This document shows, one piece after another, positions 3,217 through 32,799 of a stretch of DNA of 32,799 nucleotides. Origin of the DNA: Thermoplasmatota archaeon (GTDB taxonomy: Archaea; Thermoplasmatota; Thermoplasmata; Halarchaeoplasmatales; Halarchaeoplasmataceae); assembly GCA_018334835.1 (NCBI GenBank), contig JAGXLF010000012.1, positions 1-32,799 on the forward strand, given 5' to 3'. The notes under the pieces are model-generated. The model made no database searches. It was given only the letters and a program-made list of their open reading frames with translations, and was not told the origin of the DNA. Every line of letters begins with the position of its first letter. Position 1 is the first letter of the stretch. The translations under genes and the position numbers were made by a program.

Positions 3217-4353
3217 TTAGAATGCAGCTCGCAAGTCATCTATAAGATCATCGGCATGCTCAATCCCGACAGATAATCTTAAGAGATTTTTCGGTGTTTG
3301 GCTCTCTTCTCCCTCGATGGATGATCTATGGTCGATCAGACTTTCTACACTTCCAAGACTGGTCGCTCTGGTAAATATTTCAACATCGGAGGTGACATCG
3401 AAAGCCTTGTCTTTACCGCCCTTCAATTGGAACGACAACATCCCGCCGAAAGAGTTCATCTGTTCTTTTGCGATCTCATGTCCAGGATGAGTTTTCAATC
3501 CGGGATAATAAACTTTCTCGACTTCGGAGTGATTCTGAAGAAATTCAGCGATATTCATCGCATTCTTAGAATGTTTCTTCATCCGGAGAGTGAGCGTTCT
3601 AATACCTCTACTAATCAACCAGCAGTCGAAAGGTGATGGGCATGCACCTCCTTCTACCTGTATATTTCTTATTTCATCGAAGATATCTACATTTTTGTTT
3701 GCAACTACAGCCCCTCCCACTGCATCGCTGTGACCGCCAAAATATTTCGTTGTAGAATGGACAACTAAATCGCATCCAAGTTCTAACGGCCTCTGAAGTA
3801 TGGGTGTTGACCAAGTGTTATCGCATGCAGATATTATATCATGCTTTTTTGCGACCATAGCTGTTCTTTTGATATCCGTTACTTTCAAGAGAGGATTAGA
3901 AGGGGTTTCAATCCAGATCAGCTCAGTATTGTCCCGTATCCCCTCTTTCACTTCTTCGGTATCGGTAAAATCTATGTAACTGACCTCGAGATCCCATCTT
4001 TTCATTATATCATCGATCTGTTTTTTTATACCATGATACATATCTTCTGGACAGATGATGTGATCTCCTGTAGAAAGACTTTGAAAGACGGCCATCGCGG
4101 CCGCTGTGCCTGATGAAAAAGCTGCGCATCTTTCTCCCCTTTCCAGAAGTTTGATACATTCTTCCAACGATTCCCTGTTTGGATTATTATTCCTAGAATA
4201 GATGTAACCTTTTGGATAGCTCCCGTCTTCCGCTCTTTCAAAGGTAGTCGAAAGATTGATCGGAGATTTGATAGCTCCTGTACTCTCTTCGACCTTTCTT
4301 CCTGCGTGGACCGATAAAGTCTCCATCGATTCTTCGTCGTTTTCTTTAGCCAT
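3217..4353 (-). CDS. Cys/Met-metabolism PLP-dependent enzyme (cystathionine gamma-synthase/lyase or O-acyl-homoserine sulfhydrylase type)
   Basis: 378 residues covering the whole fold. The PLP lysine is K203 in HSTTKYFGGHSD. SSGTAAAM near residues 80-86 is the phosphate-binding loop, IETPSNPLLKVTD (148-160) is a strong family signature, and the Asp that contacts the pyridine nitrogen is in ACDNTWSTP (176-184). The C-terminal LRLSVGIEHADDLIDDL is also typical. These enzymes interconvert cysteine, cystathionine, homocysteine and methionine. The sequence alone does not separate gamma-synthase, gamma-lyase and sulfhydrylase. GGTG lies 4-7 nt before the ATG, supporting this start. It is transcribed divergently from the DUF998 gene. 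Confidence 0.9.
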   Translation of the reverse strand: MAKENDEESMETLSVHAGRKVEESTGAIKSPINLSTTFERAEDGSYPKGYIYSRNNNPNRESLEECIKLLERGERCAAFSSGTAAAMAVFQSLSTGDHIICPEDMYHGIKKQIDDIMKRWDLEVSYIDFTDTEEVKEGIRDNTELIWIETPSNPLLKVTDIKRTAMVAKKHDIISACDNTWSTPILQRPLELGCDLVVHSTTKYFGGHSDAVGGAVVANKNVDIFDEIRNIQVEGGACPSPFDCWLISRGIRTLTLRMKKHSKNAMNIAEFLQNHSEVEKVYYPGLKTHPGHEIAKEQMNSFGGMLSFQLKGGKDKAFDVTSDVEIFTRATSLGSVESLIDHRSSIEGEESQTPKNLLRLSVGIEHADDLIDDLRAAF

Positions 4354-4377
4354 ATGACACCATCTATATCAAAGAGA

Positions 4378-4534
4378 AATTGAAGGGGAGGATAAAAAAG
4401 TTCTTTCAATAATCGTAAATGTTTTGTCTTCTTTAGTATCTATAATATATGTGTTGATTTTGATAAAAAATAATATTGATAAACTTTTTAATATAGCAGT
4501 ATATTATACAACTTAAATTGTATTCGGAGGGCTC
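4378..4534. promoter_or_regulatory. Divergent promoter region between the PLP enzyme and the DUF998 gene
   Basis: This AT-rich stretch separates two divergent starts. For the plus strand, TTTTTAATATA at about 4487-4497 is a good TATA candidate, and GGAGGG at 4526-4531 is a strong Shine-Dalgarno for the ATG at 4535. For the minus strand, CTTTTTTATCC near 4393-4403 could be the TATA element of the PLP enzyme gene. The intervening sequence has several AATATT-type words but no clear operator. Confidence 0.5.
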
Positions 4535-5110
4535 ATGATGGAAATCGAAATAGAGGAATTGGTGCCTGAAAGTATCGGCGGGTACTGTGGCCTTCTAGCT
4601 CCTTTGGTCGGCTACGTCTTAATAATCGTTTCTATACTGATGCATGATGATTTCACTCTTGCCGGCAGCGCTTTGAGTGATCTCGGCGAGGTAGGCGTCT
4701 TCAACATCGCTCTCATCCTGTCAGGTATACTTTTTTTTATATTCACCTTGTCTATGTTGAGCAGAGTTGAGACCATAGTTGGAGATATAGGTTTGGCAGG
4801 GCTGGCTTTTGGCTCTATCTTCTTGGTACTCACAGGTATTTTTCCAAAAGGAACTACACCGCATACGGCGATAGTTATACTATTTTTTTCCTTTTTTGTC
4901 GCCGGTTTGTTCATGTTCAGTCTGGAAAAGTTTCTTGAATTTGAACCTGTGTGGGCGGTTCTCATCTGGTCGAGCCTTGTATTCGCTGGGATATCTATAG
5001 GTCTGGTTTCTATCCTAGATCCGGGCGGGATCGCCATATACGAGATAATAGGTACCCTGCCATTGGTTCAGTTCAGCCTGGTGTATGGAACTCGACTCCT
5101 CACTGATTGA
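4535..5110 (+). CDS. DUF998-family membrane protein
   Basis: 191 residues with about six membrane segments and an acidic N-terminal tail. The DUF998 hallmark SALSDLGEVGVFN lies at about residues 46-58. FPKGTTPHTA in the middle (about 109-118) is the second conserved loop of the family. Function in the family is unknown; members are integral membrane proteins of bacteria and archaea. The start is set by GGAGGG seven bases before the first ATG, with a second ATG directly following. It stands alone between a divergent and a convergent neighbour. Confidence 0.8.
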   Translation: MMEIEIEELVPESIGGYCGLLAPLVGYVLIIVSILMHDDFTLAGSALSDLGEVGVFNIALILSGILFFIFTLSMLSRVETIVGDIGLAGLAFGSIFLVLTGIFPKGTTPHTAIVILFFSFFVAGLFMFSLEKFLEFEPVWAVLIWSSLVFAGISIGLVSILDPGGIAIYEIIGTLPLVQFSLVYGTRLLTD

Positions 5111-5210
5111 TCTCTAGATGGCGTATTGATCTAGGCCTAGTAAAAATAAATCAAGTAAAACTGATACTACAATTCTAGTTGAATATCACTTCTATGCCGA
5201 CAACATAAAG

Positions 5211-21095: not shown

Positions 21096-21617
21096 ATGAT
21101 CATGAATATATTGACTTCGGAATTATGGTCGCCTTATGTTGTGGGGATCGGCATCGGTGTGTTGGTTTGGATTAGTTTTATCATATCTAACAAGGCGATA
21201 GGTTGTTCTACTGCTTACGCTAGAACATTTGGCATGGCTGAAAAGTTGGTCAGAGGGGAGAAGGTGAAGGAGAAGGAGTACTACAAAAAATTCATACCAA
21301 AAATAGACTGGGAGTGGATGCTCGTTCTCGGTATTGTAGTGGGAGCCTTGATCTCATCGGTGTTATCTGGGAGTTTCAGGTTTGAGAACGTACCGCTGAT
21401 CTGGAAAGAGACCATCGGTGGAGGACCTCTTCTTAGGTTTGCAGGTGCATTTATCGGGGGTCTGCTGTTGGGTTTCGGTGCTAGGATGGCCGGCGGTTGT
21501 ACCAGCGGGCACGGTATAAGCGGTACTATACAGTTGGCTTTATCAAGTTGGTTGGCCTTCATCGCATTTTTTGTAGGAGGTATCTTGACCGCTTTGTTTA
21601 TTTATGGAGGTATATAG
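21096..21617 (+). CDS. YeeE/YedE-family sulfur-compound transporter, first half
   Basis: 173 residues with four to five membrane segments. The family's conserved cysteine motifs are AIGCSTAYARTFGM (about 34-47) and RMAGGCTSGHGISG (about 143-156). YeeE/YedE proteins (for example TsuA) move thiosulfate or other sulfur species, with conserved cysteines along the pathway. Here the transporter is split into two genes. This one ends in TAG, immediately followed by the ATG of the second half. The rhodanese gene downstream supports a role in sulfur acquisition or sulfur-transfer chemistry. Confidence 0.88.
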   Translation: MIMNILTSELWSPYVVGIGIGVLVWISFIISNKAIGCSTAYARTFGMAEKLVRGEKVKEKEYYKKFIPKIDWEWMLVLGIVVGALISSVLSGSFRFENVPLIWKETIGGGPLLRFAGAFIGGLLLGFGARMAGGCTSGHGISGTIQLALSSWLAFIAFFVGGILTALFIYGGI

Positions 21618-22169
21618 ATGCTGGAGAGACTTTATGAAGACAGAAAAAAACAGCTTTTGTTCGGTTTCTTGATCGGTGTAGCTTTCGGCTTCCTGCTTGA
21701 TAGAGGTGGCGCTACTGATTTCGACGTGATAGTTAAACAACTTCTTTTAAAAGATTTCACCGTACTGAAGATCATATTTTCGGCCATAATAACCGGCATG
21801 ATCGGGGTTCATCTGATCGTGAGGTATCTACCTGCTGAACTGCAGCCTAAACCCTGTTTCTGGAAACCGATAATGATCGGAGGATTGATCTTTGGTGCCG
21901 GTTTCGCGCTCCTTGGACTCTGTCCTGGAACAGCGGCTGGCGCCTTAGGTACAGGGTCGGTCCACGCTTTGTTCGGTGTTTTGGGTATGCTTGTGGGAGC
22001 GGGATTATTCGCTTCGATTTATCCAAAATTGACAGGTTTCATAGACAGGAGTAATATGGGTGAAGTCACCATAGATGGTGTTTTGGAAATAAATAAATGG
22101 TGGATAATAACTTTGATATCATTGATATTGGCCGTTATCATGTACTATCTGGAAATGATAGGGCTGTGA
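21618..22169 (+). CDS. YeeE/YedE-family sulfur-compound transporter, second half
   Basis: 183 residues and about five membrane segments. GVAFGFLLDRGGATDFDVI near the N terminus and LLGLCPGTAAGALGTGSV (about 94-111) are characteristic of the second YeeE/YedE half; the Cys of LCPGTA is the conserved one. A GGAGGT Shine-Dalgarno lies 6 nt before the ATG, inside the end of the first-half gene, so it is separately initiated and coupled. It probably assembles with the first half into one transporter. A ZIP-like membrane gene follows 22 nt downstream. Confidence 0.88.
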   Translation: MLERLYEDRKKQLLFGFLIGVAFGFLLDRGGATDFDVIVKQLLLKDFTVLKIIFSAIITGMIGVHLIVRYLPAELQPKPCFWKPIMIGGLIFGAGFALLGLCPGTAAGALGTGSVHALFGVLGMLVGAGLFASIYPKLTGFIDRSNMGEVTIDGVLEINKWWIITLISLILAVIMYYLEMIGL

Positions 22170-23939: not shown

Positions 23940-24806
23940 TTAAGCACGTTTGAAAGAGAGAACGATTACCGCTAGTATCGCCAGTAGGATTCCGATCATC
24001 TTAGAGATGAATAGACTTTCATTGAGAAGTACAACTCCTAGAGTTACAGTGGTGATCGTCGCCAGGACCATCATCGGTTTAGCGGTGCTAGCTCCTACTG
24101 TTTTGAGCCCTTCACAGAACGATATGAAAGCCAAAGCACCGAATAACCCATTTATCGCGGGATAGGCGATCTGAAAACTGAAAGAGCCCGCGAGATTCGT
24201 CAAGCCGTACAGCGCGATGACGGCGGTCGCGATTATTATCGTCTGCATTAGAGATCTGAAGAATCTGGTTTGATCGGCACCTTTTCTCAGTATTCCCATC
24301 CTCAGAAAGACCGTCGATAGACCCAAGGTGAAAATAAGGCCTAAAAGATAAAAATGTTTTAGAGAAAGATCGAATAGAGCGGAGTTTATGGGATAAAGGA
24401 GGAAAAAAGCGGTGAGAGCTAAACCGATTCCTAGAGATTTTTTGACGGTCATCTTTTCTTTTAAAAATAATATCGATAGAAGTACGGTGATAAGGATGCT
24501 CAATCTCTGTATTGGTTTCACCAGGCTGACTTCGTAGACGCTGAGTGCGAACCTGGAGAATATGATGCCCAGCCCTACACAAACGCCCGCCAAGATGGGA
24601 TAAAACGAATTTTTGTCGAATACGATATCGAGGTCTCTCTTGTGAAAAACGTAGATCATCACTATCGGTAGAAAGAATATGGATCTAAAGAAGATAGCTG
24701 GCCAGGGGCCTAACGCGGTGACTCCTATTTTGGCGAAAAGATCACCAATACCCCACAACAGAGCGGCGGCGATTATGAAGACCATCCCGCTTTGTTCTTT
24801 TTTCAT
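23940..24806 (-). CDS. EamA/DMT-superfamily permease
   Basis: 288 residues with ten membrane segments in two EamA repeats. The first repeat opens with ALLWGIGDLFAKIGVTALGP and includes SLVKPIQRLSILITVLLSIL, FLKEKMTVKKSLGIGLALTA. The second starts near residue 150 and ends with VLLNESLFISKMIGILLAIL. These are the family's typical helix-3/helix-4 and helix-8/helix-9 patterns. Members export amino acids, nucleosides or other metabolites; the substrate is unknown. A TATA-like CATTAAATCAT (about 24830-24840, minus strand) gives a short leader. The gene stands alone. Confidence 0.88.
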   Translation of the reverse strand: MKKEQSGMVFIIAAALLWGIGDLFAKIGVTALGPWPAIFFRSIFFLPIVMIYVFHKRDLDIVFDKNSFYPILAGVCVGLGIIFSRFALSVYEVSLVKPIQRLSILITVLLSILFLKEKMTVKKSLGIGLALTAFFLLYPINSALFDLSLKHFYLLGLIFTLGLSTVFLRMGILRKGADQTRFFRSLMQTIIIATAVIALYGLTNLAGSFSFQIAYPAINGLFGALAFISFCEGLKTVGASTAKPMMVLATITTVTLGVVLLNESLFISKMIGILLAILAVIVLSFKRA

Positions 24807-24870: not shown

Positions 24871-25761
24871 CTAGTGGAATCTCTCGTCTTTTGAAAGGAT
24901 ATCTACAGCTTTTAGGGCGCTCTTTTCTTTATCCTTGATCTCCAGCATAAGATCGAAATCATGAGGTCTAGATAGTTCTATGAAGTCTCTAAAATCGTTT
25001 TTGTCGATTGTCTCTGCGTGTTTTCCTTCCTTCTTATTTGCTTCCTGAGAACTGTAATCCACCATTGGTATCCCGTCCTTTTCACTCCATGTGTTGTTTG
25101 ATTTTTCCAAAGCTTTTTCTAGACCTTCTCCAGAGCTGTTTACTCTATGATGAAGATTGTCGAACAGTACAGGCACTCCACTGTGGTGGTGGATATCCAA
25201 ACAATCTTTTAGTGAATAAGAAGTGTCGTCGTTTTCGATGACCAATCTCCTTTTTATTTTCTCATCTAGTCTTTGGAATCTCTTAACAAACCGTCTCTTA
25301 CTCTTGTCTTTATCTCCGTAGACCCCTCCGACATGGAGCTGTATCTTGGCGGTACTGTCTAAACCAAAGAGGTCCAAAACGTCGGCGTGATATCGAAGCT
25401 CTTCGATACTTCTTTTCACAACATCTTCCTTCTTGGAATTTAGAACTATGAACTGGTCAGGATGCATCGAGATACGGATGTGGTTGTCTTTGATGAAATT
25501 TCCTATTTTTTGGAATTCGTTTCTGAAGTGCGACTGCCAATCATGGTCGTTGACTTCGTGAGAAGCAAAGGGGATTAAATCCGAAGTTATCCTGAAGAAA
25601 TAGATATCGTGTTCGATATTGAATTTTAACATCTCTTCTAAACAATTTAAGTTATTCTGTACAGTCTCTATCAATCTGTCTTCAGAATACGAATCCAAAC
25701 GGAAAGTCTTGTTTCCTCTGCACTCCATAGACCGATTTATGCAGGGATAACCGACTTTCAT
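24871..25761 (-). CDS. uvsE: UV damage endonuclease UvsE/UVDE
   Basis: TIM-barrel nuclease that nicks DNA 5' of UV photoproducts, starting an alternative excision repair. 296 residues. Family landmarks are KVGYPCINRSMECRGNKTFR at the start, FFRITSDLIPFASHEV, RISMHPDQFIVLNS, IQLHVGGVYGDK, RLVIENDD, VLFDNLHHRVN, PMVDYSSQEA and LEIKDKEKSALKAV, with the His/Glu/Asp metal ligands in the expected places. I choose ATG 25761, not 25785. The TATA element TTTATATG (25783-25790, minus strand) lies 26 nt upstream, giving a leaderless message, and the decayed second copy (28955-29159) is conserved up to exactly this ATG. Ends in TAG. Confidence 0.94.
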   Translation of the reverse strand: MKVGYPCINRSMECRGNKTFRLDSYSEDRLIETVQNNLNCLEEMLKFNIEHDIYFFRITSDLIPFASHEVNDHDWQSHFRNEFQKIGNFIKDNHIRISMHPDQFIVLNSKKEDVVKRSIEELRYHADVLDLFGLDSTAKIQLHVGGVYGDKDKSKRRFVKRFQRLDEKIKRRLVIENDDTSYSLKDCLDIHHHSGVPVLFDNLHHRVNSSGEGLEKALEKSNNTWSEKDGIPMVDYSSQEANKKEGKHAETIDKNDFRDFIELSRPHDFDLMLEIKDKEKSALKAVDILSKDERFH

Positions 25762-25782
25762 GGCTTTGATAGAGAACCGCTG

Positions 25783-25790
25783 CATATAAA
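25783..25790 (-). promoter_or_regulatory. TATA box of uvsE
   Basis: TTTATATG on the minus strand is centred 26 nt before the ATG at 25761. The matching ATATAAACTT-containing stretch is preserved upstream of the uvsE remnant (about 29184-29193), so promoter and gene were duplicated together. Confidence 0.6.
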
Positions 25791-25867
25791 CTTAAAGGAG
25801 GATCGTTAGGAGGTAGTAACTTCAAATCCGGATATAGATCTAGTTTTTTAGTCTCGAGAGATAATTC

Positions 25868-25890
25868 TGATTAGTATAATGGTGATTATT
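25868..25890. repeat. Direct repeat bracketing the ATPase gene, downstream copy
   Basis: TGATTAGTATAATG at 25868-25881 is identical to 27109-27122. Extending both to 23 bp (25868-25890 and 27109-27131) gives 20 matches by manual comparison. This copy overlaps the ATPase stop codon; the other overlaps its start codon. Confidence 0.7.
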
Positions 25891-27109
25891 TTAGATCTTC
25901 AATATCGTTGATCTCTAATTCATCTGATTCGACTTTTTCTTCGTCAGGAACGAACAAGAATCGTTTGTCCACCTCATATTGTGTAAGTACCTCTTCAGCT
26001 CGTTGGACATCGCTCTGGGAAATTTCATCCTTCCACTTGACTTCTCCTATGATCTGTGGTTTCTGAAATCTGAGAAGACAAACATCGACATCATGTTCCG
26101 GTTTCTCTATTATACCTTCCGTTAATCCGTTTTTTTTAGCAAGATGTTCCCTTATCTGGTCTTCGACGAGATGAGGCATGACATCATCGACGATCCTATC
26201 CATCTCTTCCATTAAGGGATGCCTTTCAGAGATATTGTAGTGCTCGTCCGCATAATAATAAAGGTGGATCAGATGTGATGAATGAGAATATCTCTTCTTT
26301 CTCTTATTGTAGATTTCTGTCTTTTTGAGAACACCGAATTCCACCATATTGGCGAGATACTGCTGTACTAGGCTAGGGTCGTTTTTATCGATCAATCTGT
26401 TAGAGAAGAGATAGTCTGCTATCGATCCTGAGCTTGTATTGCCGGTAGCTATAGCTCTTAGAACCCCCTCGTATTTATTCGAAAGCTGTCGATTTTCCTC
26501 CTGAAAGATCTCTCCCACAAGAGCAGGAATAGTTCTCAAGGTAGAAGTGAGAACTTTTAGAAGAGTCTCTCTAGCATCATTAGAGCTATCTAAATAATCT
26601 ATCGTGATCGGTTCTCTTAAGGTTATAGCTAGTTCCATCGTATCCTTCTTGTTGAAATGTTTTGAGTCTAGAGCATCGAGCGTATTTGAGAGGTCTATTA
26701 TCGGAACGGGCACCTCTGCGAAAAGTCCTAAAAGGGGAGATCTTTTGTCGAGTAGTTTTTTTGAAAAAGATAAGGTCGAAGAAACGAGTATCAATTTTCC
26801 AGATTTTTCCATACTATGCAAGAGATCAAAAAATTCATCTCCCAGTCTGTGAAACTCATCTACGACAATGGTTTTACCGTTATTCAGTTCTCTCTGGAGT
26901 ATCTCGGTGAAGGTGTCTATCACGAGGTTTTTCATCTTGCCATTATCTTCAGTTAAAATGCTTCTATCTCTCTTAACGAAGAAATATTCATCGTGAGGTA
27001 TGAATTCCCTCAGAAGGAACGTCTTACCGGTTTTTCTTCTCCCAAATACCATGATCCATTTGTCCAGCTCTTTTATACGGCGGGTGAGCTCCGGTCTTTG
27101 AATAATCAT
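25886..27109 (-). CDS. Archaeal STAND/AAA-like ATPase with nuclease-like C-terminal domain (ATPase_2/DUF234)
   Basis: 407 residues. Walker A is GRRKTGKT (23-30) and Walker B is KTIVVDEFHRLG with D84/E85. The sensor region is KLILVSSTLSFSKK. The middle holds a winged-helix-like region (about 230-285: VLRAIATGNTSSGSIADYLF). Near the C terminus, HDVDVCLLRF with IIGEVKWKDEIS (about 345-375) gives the D...ExK pattern of DUF234, a PD-(D/E)XK-like domain. These ATPases are abundant in archaea, often in mobile or defence regions, and of unknown function. Start ATG is 26 nt from the TATA-like GTTTAAATTT (about 27132-27141), leaderless, with an operator-like element in between. It lies next to the AbiE pair. 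Confidence 0.88.
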   Translation of the reverse strand: MIIQRPELTRRIKELDKWIMVFGRRKTGKTFLLREFIPHDEYFFVKRDRSILTEDNGKMKNLVIDTFTEILQRELNNGKTIVVDEFHRLGDEFFDLLHSMEKSGKLILVSSTLSFSKKLLDKRSPLLGLFAEVPVPIIDLSNTLDALDSKHFNKKDTMELAITLREPITIDYLDSSNDARETLLKVLTSTLRTIPALVGEIFQEENRQLSNKYEGVLRAIATGNTSSGSIADYLFSNRLIDKNDPSLVQQYLANMVEFGVLKKTEIYNKRKKRYSHSSHLIHLYYYADEHYNISERHPLMEEMDRIVDDVMPHLVEDQIREHLAKKNGLTEGIIEKPEHDVDVCLLRFQKPQIIGEVKWKDEISQSDVQRAEEVLTQYEVDKRFLFVPDEEKVESDELEINDIEDLK

Positions 27110-27141
27110 GATTAGTATAATGACTATTATTGTTTAAATTT
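27101..27141 (-). promoter_or_regulatory. Promoter and possible operator of the ATPase gene
   Basis: On the minus strand, TTTAAA-type TATA DNA (about 27132-27141) is followed by AATAGTC (27122-27128) and TATACTA (27113-27119). The ATG then lies inside a perfect 12-bp palindrome, TAATCATGATTA (27103-27114). The same two words in the same order occur before the second ATPase gene. Likely a binding site between TATA and transcription start, which would repress when occupied; inference. Confidence 0.5.
27109..27131. repeat. Direct repeat bracketing the ATPase gene, upstream copy
   Basis: This is the partner of the repeat at 25868-25890 (14 bp identical, 20 of 23 overall), in the same orientation about 1.24 kb away. 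It includes the A of the ATPase ATG and the promoter words. Confidence 0.7.
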
Positions 27142-27188
27142 GTTTTGGTGTGTTAGAGAGTTGGTGGAGGAATTTTAATATTCGATAA

Positions 27189-27941
27189 TCAAAAATCGTT
27201 CATCAAGCTTTTTATCTCTTCCATCATCTTCTTTTTTTCAGGCGGTCTATGGATAAGATCTCGCATATCTCTTTTCCAATCTTCTTCTAACAAATGATAA
27301 TCGGAAAGGACGTCCATCGGTGATTTAGGAGTCATGTTTAGATCTTCGAATTTTTGATTGAGCAGATCAGGATCAAGTTCTGTTCCTTTTTTCAAGATAT
27401 ACCAAATGTCGTACAGATCTCTCGGCGCGTTTCTCTGCACTAAAGATCTGAATTTTTCTGTCAATATCTCTTCCAGATCCATCACTTTTACACTGTAGGT
27501 TCCTGTATCTGGGTAAGTTCCGAGTATCGTCTCCCAGGAGGGCTTATTATGTATCTTGTGTTTTGATATATTTATCTTCAAAGTACCCTCTGAAAGTTTT
27601 GTGCCTTCATGTAAAGGTCCTCTATATCTTATCTTAGCGAGGTAAACATCTTTTCTATCATCGATGTGTGTGAGTTCAGCGTCGATGCCGGTCTTTTCCA
27701 ATCCCTTGATCCCAGACATCAATATCTCTTCGGCGTTCTTTCCGACTATATTGAAGTCTAGATCTTCGGAAAAACGATCTAGATTGTGGACTTTTCTTAA
27801 GGAGGTACCCCCTTTAAATACTATAGAATCGTGTTTCAGGTAGATATGTTTTAAAATTATGCTTTGAAGGTAGTCAAGTTCGATCATATGAAGAGGGACG
27901 TTTTCTTCATGGAATTCTTTTAATTGAGTTTTCGTCAGCAT
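27189..27941 (-). CDS. abiEii: AbiEii-family nucleotidyltransferase toxin
   Basis: Toxin of a type IV toxin-antitoxin/abortive infection system. 250 residues. The nucleotidyltransferase core is FKGGTSLRKVH (about 43-52) followed by RFSEDLDF, giving the GG-T/S...D-x-D pattern with D60 and D62 as metal ligands. APRDLYDIWYIL further on is the typical AbiEii/DUF1814 motif. Family members modify RNA (tRNA in MenT) or other targets with nucleotides. The ATG at 27941 overlaps the abiEi stop (ATGCTGA) and is preceded by AAGGTGG at good spacing, so the upstream in-frame ATG at 27974 is rejected. Cotranscribed with abiEi. Confidence 0.9.
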   Translation of the reverse strand: MLTKTQLKEFHEENVPLHMIELDYLQSIILKHIYLKHDSIVFKGGTSLRKVHNLDRFSEDLDFNIVGKNAEEILMSGIKGLEKTGIDAELTHIDDRKDVYLAKIRYRGPLHEGTKLSEGTLKINISKHKIHNKPSWETILGTYPDTGTYSVKVMDLEEILTEKFRSLVQRNAPRDLYDIWYILKKGTELDPDLLNQKFEDLNMTPKSPMDVLSDYHLLEEDWKRDMRDLIHRPPEKKKMMEEIKSLMNDF

Positions 27942-28672
27942 TTTTTCCACCTTAAGTTGTCTATTACATTCCATCTATTGTCTTTAGTTCCTCCAGATCT
28001 TGAAGGATCTAACGGGATAGGAGATTTTGAGATATTTTCCTTGAGTCGTTCTTCATCAAAATTTTTGTCAGTTTTTTGTAAGAGGTACCCGAGTCTAGAG
28101 CACAGGGATTTTTTATCAACTTTTAACGCGTAATCGACTATCTTCTCTCCGTCTATAGCGGCTTCAATTATCGAGTTTTTTATTTCTTGTATACCGCCTG
28201 CGTATTTCGGATAGAGAAGACAATCGATGAACAGTTTTTCAGGCTCAGCTATGACTAGTTTTTTTTCCGAAGTATATCCAAAGAAATGGCTTGTTTTAAC
28301 GAACCTTATATCTTGATTTTGTAGCGATATTGATTCTTTTGAGTTGGAAACCATCACATAAACTGTCCTCGGGACTTGTGTTGTAAAACCATAGTGGTGT
28401 AATGCAGACCAAAGGGAGATGTAAGAAGGAGTTACTATATTGGAGGCTATATGGTAAATATGGGTCTCTTCTAGTTTTTCAGTGGAGATGTATTTTCCTT
28501 TCTCTATTCTGTGGATGAGATCTTTAGATTCCATCCTGTTTAAAATACGGTAGGTGTTCTCTCTGCTTTCATCCAAGATGTTGGAGGCCTCTATCGGATT
28601 GAATACTAAGAGGTCTCTTCTGGACAGCTCGTTCAGGAGTTTCCTCTCTCTCGACGACATCCCATAACTCAT
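27935..28672 (-). CDS. abiEi: AbiEi-family antitoxin/transcriptional regulator
   Basis: 245 residues. An N-terminal winged helix (about 1-72) has LSRRDLLVFNPIEASNILDE, NTYRILNRMESKDLIHRIEK and GKYIS. It is followed by the AbiEi C-terminal antitoxin domain: SYISLWSALHHYGFTTQVPR, TVYVMVSN, HFFGYTSEKKLVIAEPEKLF and IDCLLYPKYAGG. In this family the N domain binds inverted or repeated sites in its own promoter and represses the operon, and the C domain counters the toxin. GAGGTTAG lies about 7 nt before the ATG. Three 8-bp repeats sit by its TATA box (28692-28715). Overlaps the toxin by 7 nt. Confidence 0.9.
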   Translation of the reverse strand: MSYGMSSRERKLLNELSRRDLLVFNPIEASNILDESRENTYRILNRMESKDLIHRIEKGKYISTEKLEETHIYHIASNIVTPSYISLWSALHHYGFTTQVPRTVYVMVSNSKESISLQNQDIRFVKTSHFFGYTSEKKLVIAEPEKLFIDCLLYPKYAGGIQEIKNSIIEAAIDGEKIVDYALKVDKKSLCSRLGYLLQKTDKNFDEERLKENISKSPIPLDPSRSGGTKDNRWNVIDNLRWKKC

Positions 28673-28691
28673 TAGTCTAACCTCTCAATAT

Positions 28692-28721
28692 ATGAGATAA
28701 TGAGTTGTTGAGTTATATATC
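28692..28721 (-). promoter_or_regulatory. abiE promoter with three 8-bp tandem repeats (candidate operator)
   Basis: On the plus strand ATGAGATA, ATGAGTTG and TTGAGTTA stand directly one after another (28692-28715). They run into a TATATAT stretch (28715-28721) that is the minus-strand TATA box. They lie between TATA and the predicted transcription start (about 28691), where a bound AbiEi would block initiation. Role inferred. Confidence 0.5.
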
Positions 28722-28954
28722 GTTTTTGGCTGAGTCCGAAAGTAAGAGTCCTTTGGATCTTATCGCTCCAAAAGACTAGCCTCGTACTTGGAGATCGCTT
28801 TTTAATTCATATCCTGTTTTTGTAGATTTTTCATCATTACGGCATATCTTTTGTAGTATAGTAAATTGTCGAGCGCGTGGGTCGTGAGTGAGATCTCTAT
28901 ATGTTCTGGAGCTATGAATTAAAGAAAATATCAATTAGAAACATCAGTGGAATG

Positions 28955-29159
28955 CCTTCTCCGGAGCTGTTTACTCTATGATGAAGATTGTCGAACAGTA
29001 CAGGCACTCCACATTTCTGGTGGATATCCAAACAATCTTTTAGAGAATAAAAAGTGTCGTCATTTTCGATGACCGATCTTCAGAATAGGAATTCAGACGG
29101 AAAGTCTTGTTTCCTCTGCACTCCATAGACCGATTTATGCAGGGATAACCGACTTTCAT
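28955..29159 (-). pseudogene. Decayed partial second copy of uvsE
   Basis: Two uvsE pieces are joined. 28955-29078 matches 25124-25247 of the intact gene (about 115 of 124 bases by manual count). 29079-29159 matches 25681-25761 (about 78 of 81). The 433 bp between these pieces are missing, which shifts the frame, and everything after codon ~213 is also gone. The start codon and the ATATAAACTT promoter stretch are kept. It cannot encode a working UvsE. Confidence 0.88.
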
Positions 29160-29281
29160 GTTGCTAGGTAAGAGGTTCGGGTGATATAAACTTGAAGGGA
29201 AAGGTGTGGAATCCATTTCGTTTTAAGCAGTCCAAATCTTCAGTCGAGATCACTGTTTAAGAAAAAGGGAACAAAGGGATT

Positions 29282-31441
29282 TTAGAAGCTGTATTGGTCG
29301 ATCATACTGCGAAGGTTATCCGTTAGCCCGGATAGTTGCTGTGCAGATTCTGATAATTCTTCTACGGAAGCATTCTGTTCTTCTGCAGAAGCCGCCACGG
29401 ACTCCGCTTGACCAGAGTTTTCATCAGCTATTTCCGTTACAGATTTCACTTTTTCAGCGGACTGTTGAAGCTGATTGGAAACCTCATCTACAGCTCTAGA
29501 TATCTGGTGTATAGAGTTGGAAACTGAATCTGTTGCTTCTCTTATCTGTTGAAGAGCATTGAGGTTTTCTTGTGTAACAGAATCTACATTTTCAGCCTTT
29601 TCACTCACATCCTGGACACCATGTACTACTTTAGACGCATTACTCTGTGTCTTTTCTATTACTTCTTTGATGTTTTCTGTTTCTTTCTGTGTTTCCTCAG
29701 CGAGCTCCCTGACCGAATCTGCTACAACAGCAAATCCTTTCCCGTGTTCTCCCGCTCTAGCCGCCTCTATAGAGGCGTTCAAGGCAAGTAGGTTGGTCTG
29801 TTCGGCAATGTTTGATATCGTGTCTATTACCTTTCCAATTCTATCTGATTGGTCATCTAAACGGTGTACTTTTTCGGCAGTCAAGTCCAGTATTTCTTTC
29901 AATTCTTTTACTTCCTCTGAAGCCTTTTTAGCACTTTCTTCGCCCTCATCAGTTTGAGCAGCAACCTCTTCAGCGGAAGCGGCGATGTCTTCGACTGAAG
30001 CAGAGGTTTCTTCCATGCTTGCTGCTCCATCTTCGATTGTATTTGAGAGACTTTCTGCCATTTCTGCTTGTTCGTTTGTTCCTTTGGAAATGCTCTGGAC
30101 TGATTCGGTCACATTTTCTGAAGTAGAACTCAGTTCCTCGGATGATGCAGCAACAGTTTCTGATGCTTGGCTTAGTTCCACTACGGATTCTCTCAATTCT
30201 TTGATATTCTCCCTGGTGTTTTGCATGCTTTTATTGATGGATTTGCCGATCGTAAGGTACTCACCCTTTAGATCTTTCAAATCTATTTCTTGGTCCAATT
30301 CTCCTTGAGCAAGAGCATCCATAACAACTTTTATTTCTTCTATAGAACGTTTTATAGCTGATAGTGTCTCGTTGACCGATTCGCCCATGTCTTTGTAATC
30401 TCCTAATAGTTCTTCAGTGTCAACATCTTCATCGAACTTCCCCTCTGATAGGTCTTTCATCACTTTATTTATCTCATGCATTGATTTTTTGATAGCGTTT
30501 ACACTTTGGTTGACAGAGTGAGCCATATCTTTGTAGTCTCCTCTTAATTCACTATCATCTATAGTCGCGTCAAGTTCGCCCCTTGCGAGAGAGTTCATCA
30601 CTGTTTTTATGCCGGTGATAGAATATCTGGCCTTTTCTATACTTTCATTCACATCTTCTGCCATCTCTTTGTAATCTCCTTTGAGAGTGTCAGTATTGAT
30701 TTCAGAGGAGAGATCACCATTTTTCAATCTAAGCATGGATTGGTTAATTTTATCGAAAGATTCTTGGATTGCTTCTATACTTTCGTTTATGGATCTACCG
30801 ATCTCTTCATATTCTCCTTCAAGATTTTCTAGTTTCACTCTCCTTTGGAGATTGCCGTCCTCTAAATCAATCATCACATCTTTGATCTCGTTCAAAGAGC
30901 TTTCTATACCATCTATACTTCTGTTAATGGTCACGGCCATATTTTTATAATCTCCATGAAGATTCTGAGCTGAGATCCTTTCATTCAGTCTTCCTTCTGA
31001 AAGAAGAGTAAGAGTAGTTTGAATTTGGTCGATGCTGTTGACAAAATCATTTTTCATTTTTTTGAAAGAATCAACTAGATCTCCAACTTCGTCGTCTCTT
31101 GCTTTGACATTTATATCAGATGTGAAATTTCCTTCTGCTATTTCTTTAGTGTTTTTTTTCAGTTCAGCGATCGGTCCGATTATGAAATTTTTAACATATA
31201 TCGTTATTCCAATAGCAACAAAAACATTTGTTGAGATGACAATAACTATTCTATATATGCGGGGAAGTGGGATCATAACAGTACCCATGTAATAATAAGA
31301 CCCACACAGTATAAATGCTAAAGCTACAGTTTTAAAGATCAAACTCTTTCGATATATTGCATACCACACTCCAATAAATATAATCAGTGTGATAATTGAC
31401 ACAACAAGCGTACCTAGATTGAGGTCATACATGGTTATCAT
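29282..31441 (-). CDS. Methyl-accepting chemotaxis protein with six 46-residue HAMP-like repeats and no extracellular sensor
   Basis: 719 residues. Three hydrophobic segments fill about residues 8-84 with only very short loops, so there is no extracellular ligand domain. A canonical HAMP (about 86-140) is followed by six tandem units whose G-D/E-Y motif falls at residues 163, 209, 255, 301, 347 and 393, an exact 46-residue period (LxxGDYKxMAxSINxSI). Residues ~420-719 form the signalling coiled coil, with [21 protein letters not shown] at the CheA/CheW-contacting tip and many Glu-rich methylation-type positions. Signals probably enter from the membrane or cytoplasm. TATA GGTATAAATA (31465-31474) is about 26 nt from the ATG, so leaderless. 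No che genes are in the window. Confidence 0.9.
30188..31021 (-). repeat. Six tandem 138-bp coding repeats in the chemoreceptor
   Basis: They encode residues ~141-418, six units of exactly 46 codons. The amino-acid pattern is conserved, but DNA identity between units is only moderate, so these are old duplications kept by selection on structure rather than recent slippage. Confidence 0.8.
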
Positions 31442-31474: not shown

Positions 31475-31640
31475 TTTTTTTAAAAAACAATGAGTAAAAG
31501 TTATCACTCGGCGGTCCTTCTAGAGATATTTTGTTCGATCATAAAGTGGAAAAGAAATGAACAAGTTTTTCTTCCAATCAATCTAGGTGTAAAGTTTGCT
31601 CGAAAGAGGATAGGACGTTTGTGAAAGGGACTGCCGACTC

Positions 31641-31802
31641 GGGGAACGAGTTCCCCTACGCCCTCGAAAGCTTCGCTTTACACGGAACAAGTTCCGTGAA
31701 TCGAAGGAAAATCCTAGATTTTCCTGTAGATTCTGCGGACTGCGCTAGCTCTTCGCTCCCAAGAGCCTGCTCGGGGAGGAAAGGTTTTACTTACGAGTAA
31801 GT
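31641..31802. repeat. Cluster of six closely spaced hairpins
   Basis: Inverted repeats: GGGGAAC/GTTCCCC (31641-31656); AAAGC/GCTTT (31667-31679); CACGGAAC/GTTCCGTG (31681-31698); AGGAAAATC/GATTTTCCT (31705-31725), enclosed by GAATC/GATTC out to 31733; GCTCTT/AAGAGC (31748-31766); and ACTTAC/GTAAGT (31789-31802). Three share a centre of the form AC-(G/A)A-GT. GC content is higher than in the surrounding intergenic DNA. The cluster could be a structured RNA, a REP-like repeat or a non-autonomous mobile element end. Confidence 0.65.
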
Positions 31803-31845: not shown

Positions 31846-31884
31846 CTTAAATAAAATAGTCTATACTATTATAGTCATGACTAT
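31846..31884 (+). promoter_or_regulatory. Promoter and possible operator of the second ATPase gene
   Basis: CTTAAATAAAA (31846-31856) is the TATA box, centred 26 nt before the ATG at 31877. AATAGTC (31855-31861) and TATACTA (31862-31868) follow. The ATG sits in the centre of a perfect 14-bp palindrome, ATAGTCATGACTAT (31871-31884). The arrangement mirrors that of the first ATPase gene at 27101-27141. Confidence 0.55.
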
Positions 31885-32799
31885 GTTTATCGATCGAGAA
31901 GATGAAATTAAGAAGTTGGAGGAATGGGAAGGAGATGTTGCCCTCATATTCGGAAGAAGACGTGTAGGAAAAACTAGGTTGATAAAAGAATTCATAAAAA
32001 ATAAAAAAAGTCTCTATCTACTATGTGCAGATAAGGGAAGCGAATATAACCTAAAGAATTTTTCAAATATTATATCTGAAAGATACGGCATACCTGGCCT
32101 GCGATTTGAGAGTTTTAAAGAGATGTTTCAATTTTTAGCAGGTCAAGAAACGGAGTTCATATGTATAGATGAGTTTGGATATCTGGTTAAATCAGGAGTC
32201 GTTCCCGAATTTCAAGAGATAATTGACGAGATATTGGAACAGAGATTGATTTTGTGCGGTAGTAATGTATCTACTATGAAATCAAAGATCACCGGCTATG
32301 AAAGTCCCACATATGGAAGGATGGACTTGATAAAGAAGATAAATCCTTTGAAATTCAAAGATGTTCTTGAATGGTTTCCCGATATGGGTATGGAAGACGG
32401 AGTTATGCTTTACGGAGCTACAGGAGGTGTTCCTAGATACCTGGAGTTTTTCGATGGTAAGGACGCTGAAAAGGAGATAAGAGAAAAGATGTTCGATCCC
32501 GACCTCATGTTGTACAGAGATACGAAGCTCCTTCTTCAAGAAGAGATGCCAGAACCCACCAGGTACTATCTCATACTGGAGTCTATCGCATTGGGCAAAA
32601 ACTCGTTGACCGATATAGCTAACTACTCTAAGATCGATCGGAACCAGATACCATATTATCTGAACACTCTTAAAGATCTAGGTTTTGTAAAGCATGAAAA
32701 ACCCCTTCTGGCAAAAAAGAGAGGCGTTTACGGTATAACTGATAATTACATGAAATTTTGGTTCAGGTTCATATCTCCTTTCTATGAGGAGATCGACAG
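31877..32799 (+). CDS. Archaeal ATPase (ATPase_2 family), 3' truncated by window
   Basis: 307 residues are visible and the frame is open to the window edge. Walker A is GRRRVGKT (26-33) and Walker B is EFICIDEFGYL (about 94-104). LILCGSNVSTMKSK is the sensor strand. MDLIKKINPLKFKDVLEWF and YGATGGVPRYLEFFDG are hallmark lid motifs of this family. A winged-helix segment follows (LTDIANYSKIDRNQIPYYLN), and a C-terminal DUF234-type domain would be expected beyond the edge. It is a different subfamily member from the ATPase at 25886-27109 but shares its promoter design. An in-frame ATG at 31883 is an alternative start; the first fits the TATA spacing. Confidence 0.9.
   Translation, partial: MTMFIDREDEIKKLEEWEGDVALIFGRRRVGKTRLIKEFIKNKKSLYLLCADKGSEYNLKNFSNIISERYGIPGLRFESFKEMFQFLAGQETEFICIDEFGYLVKSGVVPEFQEIIDEILEQRLILCGSNVSTMKSKITGYESPTYGRMDLIKKINPLKFKDVLEWFPDMGMEDGVMLYGATGGVPRYLEFFDGKDAEKEIREKMFDPDLMLYRDTKLLLQEEMPEPTRYYLILESIALGKNSLTDIANYSKIDRNQIPYYLNTLKDLGFVKHEKPLLAKKRGVYGITDNYMKFWFRFISPFYEEID

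Follow-up and report, generated by a model that had tools for sequence, protein, structure and literature searches.

Toxin-antitoxin genes can stabilise the genomic islands that carry them, and AbiE on ICESa2603 serves as an example (PMC11062541). The archaeal locus analysed here resembles that arrangement in that an AbiE pair lies beside DNA that appears to be acquired. It comprises an intact and a decayed uvsE gene, between which stand an ATPase gene and an AbiEi/AbiEii pair. A first-pass annotation had read the whole as an islet that may have entered by duplication and insertion, with a promoter-uvsE unit duplicated whole. We consider it rather probable instead that toxin-antitoxin genes were layered here next to a uvsE-EamA unit that was already resident.

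The window, that is, the whole stretch of DNA analysed (G000:C15, 32,799 bp), comes from a metagenome-assembled genome of 1.71 Mb (84% complete, 3.6% contamination), most likely that of a halophilic member of the Thermoplasmatota. All close relatives used for comparison are incomplete draft genomes, and the searches drew on one genome per species. G001 is a congener of the window genome, G002, G003 and G004 belong to the same genus, whereas G006 and G012 are each from a genus other than that of the window.

An intact uvsE and the remains of a second copy

As the first-pass annotation had proposed, an intact uvsE encoding UV damage endonuclease is present at 24871-25785 on the minus strand. Its product contains the UvdE TIM-barrel domain (PF03851 score 218 bits, cut-off 24), and the start common to its homologs is at 25761. 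Like UvsE/UVDE proteins, it gives a full-length match and carries the group motifs, which we found in the homologs as ASHxxN, MHPDQF, HVGG, ENDD, DYSS and LEIKDKE. Near residue 241, the group to which it belongs reads M-V/I-D-Y-S/T in most of the 80 homologs kept. Nothing in this signature is peculiar to the window genome.

Repeat searches and alignment of the two regions also confirmed a fragmentary second uvsE in the same orientation, at 28955-29159 (-). This pseudogene consists of two pieces, both in direct orientation relative to the intact gene: 29077-29159 corresponds to the initial 83 nt of the intact gene with 96% identity, and 28955-29079 is 93% identical over 125 nt to 25124-25248. 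The segment corresponding to 25249-25678 of the intact gene is missing (430 bp, not a multiple of three, so that the frame is shifted), and this deletion sits at a CAATCT/CGATCT microhomology. Everything 3' of intact position 25124 is absent as well. A protein search of the genome itself recovered the two pieces at E values of 1.3e-19 and 1.6e-13, far beyond chance, and the same whole-genome search returned no uvsE besides the intact copy and this remnant. Only the intact copy, which is linked to EamA, is predicted to be still able to make UvsE. We had considered whether the 3' end of uvsE might also be retained in the remnant, as CATTCCACTGA resembles the intact ...TTCCACTAG; this was rejected, since the sequence is the end of an abiEii gene of another AbiE type (type A, below) with its 3' flank.

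The two uvsE copies have unrelated leaders

The first-pass annotation held that the second uvsE had kept its promoter. The start codon and a TATA-like box are indeed retained, but the sequence upstream of the ATG does not match that of the intact gene: in the leader alignment, homology between the two copies stops at the start codon and the upstream regions are unrelated. The promoter and leader of the pseudogene (29160-29226, minus strand) instead resemble those of G001 (L139:4264-4446). The remnant is 84% identical to the G001 uvsE locus over 29077-29198 and 89% over 29191-29226, and its leader, TTTATATCACCCGAACCTCTTACCTAGCAAC-ATG, is nearly the same as the TTTATATCACCCGAACCCCTCACCTAGTAAC-ATG of the single intact G001 uvsE. 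The leader of the intact window copy matches neither.

These observations bear directly on the model of the first-pass annotation, in which a promoter-uvsE unit was duplicated whole and an ATPase-AbiE block was then inserted between the copies. The model would explain why two copies in direct orientation surround the block, and why one of them keeps its start codon and TATA-like box. Because the leaders are unrelated and that of the remnant groups with the G001 locus, duplication of a complete promoter-gene unit fails; moreover, the block is not one unit, as described below. We therefore regard this model as very improbable. A composite element bounded by uvsE repeats does not describe the pair either, as the leaders differ and one copy is truncated at its 3' end.

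The coding sequences tell a different story from the leaders. Both window copies agree against G001 at 29 of the 208 coding sites. At the 12 sites where they differ from each other, the remnant has the G001 base at 8 and a change private to itself at 4. In their coding parts the two are therefore closest to each other. These counts, taken with the leader alignment, indicate that the coding parts descend from a common ancestor that postdates the G001 split and that the leaders do not. One could suppose that a second uvsE-AbiE unit arrived by transfer from a closely related congener and that the two loci never exchanged sequence, the likeness of the copies simply reflecting a related donor. This would suit both their divergence (5.8%, compared with about 18% to G001) and the patchy occurrence of AbiE units in the family. 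Yet it requires that the EamA-linked copy and the AbiE-linked copy of the donor, which differ in leader and linkage, became sisters once G001 had split off, and we think it hardly likely.

The intact gene is linked to EamA

The EamA transporter gene lies next to the intact uvsE, at 23940-24806 (-). The same linkage occurs in G006, where uvsE is single and has no AbiE or ATPase gene upstream. The window also has genes at 21096-22169 that we take, from reading their sequences, to be YeeE-like, and the same genes stand beside the G006 uvsE. In G001, EamA stands alone. Outside the TATA box, the leader of the intact window gene resembles that of G006 at chance level (counted by eye); the support for regarding the EamA locus as the older one is therefore the linkage seen in this single other genome.

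None of the relatives had an empty site in which a single uvsE is flanked, as the window locus is, by a chemotaxis gene and EamA; the nearest to one is the G006 locus, in a partly different setting. The methyl-accepting chemotaxis gene of the window (29282-31441) encodes at least five HAMP repeats; at the DNA level it is most similar to another gene of its family within the window genome (69%), and it has no clear ortholog in the relatives.

Within the genus of the window, uvsE is patchy. G003 and G004 have none, and G002 retains only an 80-bp 5' remnant (G002:C11, L131:8809-8888), an independent one that adjoins a subtilase-like gene and is 2.8 kb away from an AbiE pair of type A. Decay of uvsE is recurrent in this genus.

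One AbiE pair stands on the remains of another

The AbiEi/AbiEii pair of the first-pass annotation is confirmed. The putative antitoxin gene abiEi (27935-28672, minus strand) scores 27.7 bits against PF09407 (cut-off 22.2) and matches PADLOC AbiEi at 1.2e-57, while the putative toxin gene abiEii (27189-27974, minus strand) scores 102.5 bits against PF08843 (cut-off 22.5), matches PADLOC AbiEii at 3.1e-47 and contains a GGTSL...DLDF motif. abiEi is upstream in the same operon, and the two genes overlap at 27935-27974. With its promoter, the unit spans 27187-28730 (-). It is 80% identical in DNA to G002:C40 over 27187-28728 and 83% identical to G012:C90 over 28585-28730. We refer to this pair as type B; it is approximately 33% identical to the type A pair that follows uvsE in G001, in the order uvsE, AbiEi, AbiEii.

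Between the uvsE remnant and the type-B pair lie two remnants of type A that the first-pass annotation had overlooked. The first, at 28913-28954 (-), comprises the last codons of abiEii (..AFH*) and its 3' flank; over 48 nt (28913-28960) it is 90% identical to G001:C59 6953-7000, the end of the G001 abiEii. The second, at 28732-28875 (-), is the 5' end of abiEi, approximately its first 43 codons, with an in-frame stop and a frameshift; it is 75-80% identical to G001:C59 5383-5512 and G002:C11 4358-4501 and was recovered by blastx at E = 3e-8. The junction is sharp: both type-B matches end where this remnant begins, homology to type B running to 28728/28730 and homology to type A starting at 28732. 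A related junction exists in G012:C90, where a decayed type-A abiEii is found just upstream of a type-B abiEi, so that in two genera type B is found on what is left of type A. The remnants, their order, their homologies and their boundaries can be read directly from the DNA. Since the end of abiEii precedes the start of abiEi in the window, the reverse of the G001 order, a tandem copy or a further rearrangement must be assumed.

The earlier proposal of a block that may have entered by duplication and insertion stands only in part. An intact and a decayed uvsE do bracket the ATPase and AbiE genes, and the islet looks acquired; it is not a single block. It consists of at least three layers with separate histories, namely the type-A remnants, the type-B pair and the ATPase gene. 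We also examined linkage of uvsE and AbiE as a general pattern and rejected it: among the 80 uvsE loci kept, many of them short, a search for types A and B placed AbiE at G001 alone.

The ATPase gene is bracketed by direct repeats

The third layer is an ATPase gene at 25886-27109 (-). The earlier label, ATPase_2/DUF234, has to be replaced: ATPase_2 scores 16.6 bits, below its cut-off of 33.2, and DUF234 was not listed at E<=1, whereas AAA_14 scores 31.1 bits against a cut-off of 27. In an alignment of eight homologs, GRRKxGKT, DEFxRL, D342 and GEVKW are invariant. The conserved D...GEVKW C-terminus is typical of PD-(D/E)XK nucleases, making the protein a candidate nuclease. No viral relatives of the ATPase were confirmed.

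Repeat and pattern searches revealed a feature absent from the first-pass annotation. Direct 30-bp repeats flank the gene, the 5' copy (27102-27131, minus strand) lying over the start codon and the 3' copy (25861-25890, minus strand) over the stop codon, approximately 100 bp upstream of the intact uvsE; each contains a promoter motif of about 21 bp. Within the window genome, the core ATAATNNNCATTATACTAATC occurs exactly at these two places only. In G003 it is found only at the ATPase ortholog, in three copies, one of them by a duplicated 137-bp 3' end of the ATPase gene. Across 21 genomes, a copy with one mismatch accompanies a decayed ATPase gene in G009, and every other match has two mismatches. 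We asked whether the 3' repeat might be the promoter of a lost tandem copy, and rejected this, since the sequence beyond it is unlike the start of an ATPase gene.

In G003, the duplicated 137-bp ATPase 3' end (G003:C53, L133:4020-4156 and 4896-5031, 97% identical) surrounds a small nucleotidyltransferase gene and is accompanied by the third copy of the motif. Here, too, direct repeats of part of a gene enclose a gene that resembles a toxin-antitoxin component.

We then surveyed 94 related ATPase genes for repeats shared between start and stop, with a score threshold of 12 and with cross-pairings of different genes and 162 other genes as controls. Twelve of the 94 scored at least 12, compared with 0.4% of the cross-pairings and 4 of the 162 other genes; some of the repeat-bearing genes had prompted the survey, and those of G020:C3, G020:C6 and G070 came from sequence obtained afterwards. 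Besides the window, start/stop repeats were found at L131:667-2046, L188, L186, L238, L266, L258, L219 and L313. In the 12 genes they lie near the start and stop codons; the exceptions are G001:C8, with a repeat approximately 80 bp upstream, and G020:C6, with one located 30 bp beyond the stop. G070 is the one further Thermoplasmata gene of this kind in genomes reached via uvsE loci; none of the 22 other ATPase genes in those genomes scored 12.

The motif varies from gene to gene, but its copies at the two ends of any given gene match each other. In G002, G005, G009 and G011, a search of each genome for close matches found the motif of each gene only at its two ends; in G007 the full-length 20-bp pattern is present only at the 5' end, the 3' repeat being a shorter, 19-bp copy. 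Orthologs that diverge by 25-31% in protein sequence retain the 3' copy. Several of the repeats, placed after a TATA-like box and before the start codon, are palindromic like operators and are candidates for such sites. For the ATPase repeat of the window itself, a palindrome test was not significant.

Terminal repeats, as a one-gene mobile ATPase cassette would have, are thus present in the window, in G003 and in others. A filled and an empty site are seen only in G005:C44 (L309, approximately 3697-5125) and G009:C76 (L308, approximately 765). These contigs, from two genera, are otherwise 96-98% identical and differ by one ATPase gene of approximately 1.4 kb, a related gene (34.5% identical) without a 3' repeat. 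This difference suggests that single ATPase genes come and go, unless the two contigs are contaminated. A single-copy motif was also considered as a mark of an empty site and rejected: the window motif has no exact one, and the single G010 match of another motif is an ATPase 3' remnant.

We propose tentatively, with slightly more doubt than conviction, that, in a subset of the archaeal ATPase-nuclease genes, the gene's own promoter operator stands at both ends in the same orientation, one copy between TATA box and start, the other at the stop. The copies might be the ends of a one-gene mobile unit, or two operators forming a loop or roadblock through which the protein would control or insulate its gene. 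With the terms used, we found no literature report of such repeats, which is weak evidence of absence.

Elsewhere in the window, near another ATPase gene, there is an intergenic stretch rich in hairpins (31640-31760), such as ACGGAAC..GTTCCGTGAATCGA and its like, which many genomes of the family match in part. A palindrome, ATAGTCATGACTAT, lies at 31863-31890 over the start codon of an ATPase_2 gene at 31877 and looks operator-like, as in relatives. The hairpin stretch has no Rfam match, and neither has any other part of the window.

A model for the assembly of the locus

For the layered locus, we infer the following order of events. An older unit of promoter, uvsE, AbiEi and AbiEii (type A), similar to that of G001, would once have stood at 28732-29226, of which decay has left fragments. 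The unlike type-B AbiE pair would have come to abut the abiEi-A remnant, and the ATPase-nuclease gene with its own flanking repeats to adjoin AbiE-B. After the split from G001, the uvsE coding sequences would have been exchanged or homogenised, either by gene conversion or by a single crossover at uvsE through which the unit entered. Such an exchange would account for coding parts that are 93-96% alike beneath unrelated leaders.

The single crossover can also be taken as the whole explanation: circular or linear DNA carrying uvsE and AbiE would have recombined once with the resident uvsE, in a Campbell-type insertion, leaving direct repeats with different leaders. G001 shows that a uvsE-AbiE unit exists, and the event would yield the direct orientation, the different leaders and the near-identical coding parts; it would also place AbiE DNA between the two genes, with EamA following the second of them. 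On its own, it accounts neither for the replacement of AbiE-A by AbiE-B nor for the ATPase gene. In addition, the G001 uvsE combines the 'resident' leader with the 'incoming' AbiE-A, and no integrase or circular form was seen. We consider this account unlikely, albeit worth keeping in mind, and retain the layered model.

Under the layered model, the AbiE-B genes would form a type IV toxin-antitoxin module that regulates itself and makes its own loss costly. Recombination between the uvsE copies, whose shared tracts are only 84 and 125 bp long at 93-96% identity, may possibly delete the block, as the first-pass annotation had suggested; that the AbiE toxin counter-selects such a deletion is conjecture.

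Comparison with known systems

The uvsE story is largely ordinary, although it illustrates how a direct-repeat signature can mislead: the leaders, together with the neighbours in relatives, place the two copies at different loci. The AbiE genes appear to have been caught in the replacement of one family by another at one spot, with the related decayed-A/intact-B junction in a second genus. As in described AbiE type IV systems, both proteins of the window pair exceed the curated cut-offs, the antitoxin gene comes first and the genes overlap. The pair, with its putative toxin-antitoxin activity, differs in being archaeal and in standing on the remnants of an older pair. Compared with islands of the ICESa2603 type (PMC11062541), the window has no recognised integrase, relaxase or att sites among its ORFs, and looks like the product of stepwise turnover.

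Of the findings here, it is the ATPase pattern that merits further attention. If the proposed bracketing is true, self-bracketed units occur among the archaeal ATPase genes, a very abundant but poorly understood group, and may explain their spread or point to two-operator control. The window gene shares with the archaeal AAA_14 ATPase-nuclease genes the Walker A and B motifs, the D...GEVKW C-terminus and the many copies per genome, and the direct copies of its motif at start and stop place it in a subset of that family.
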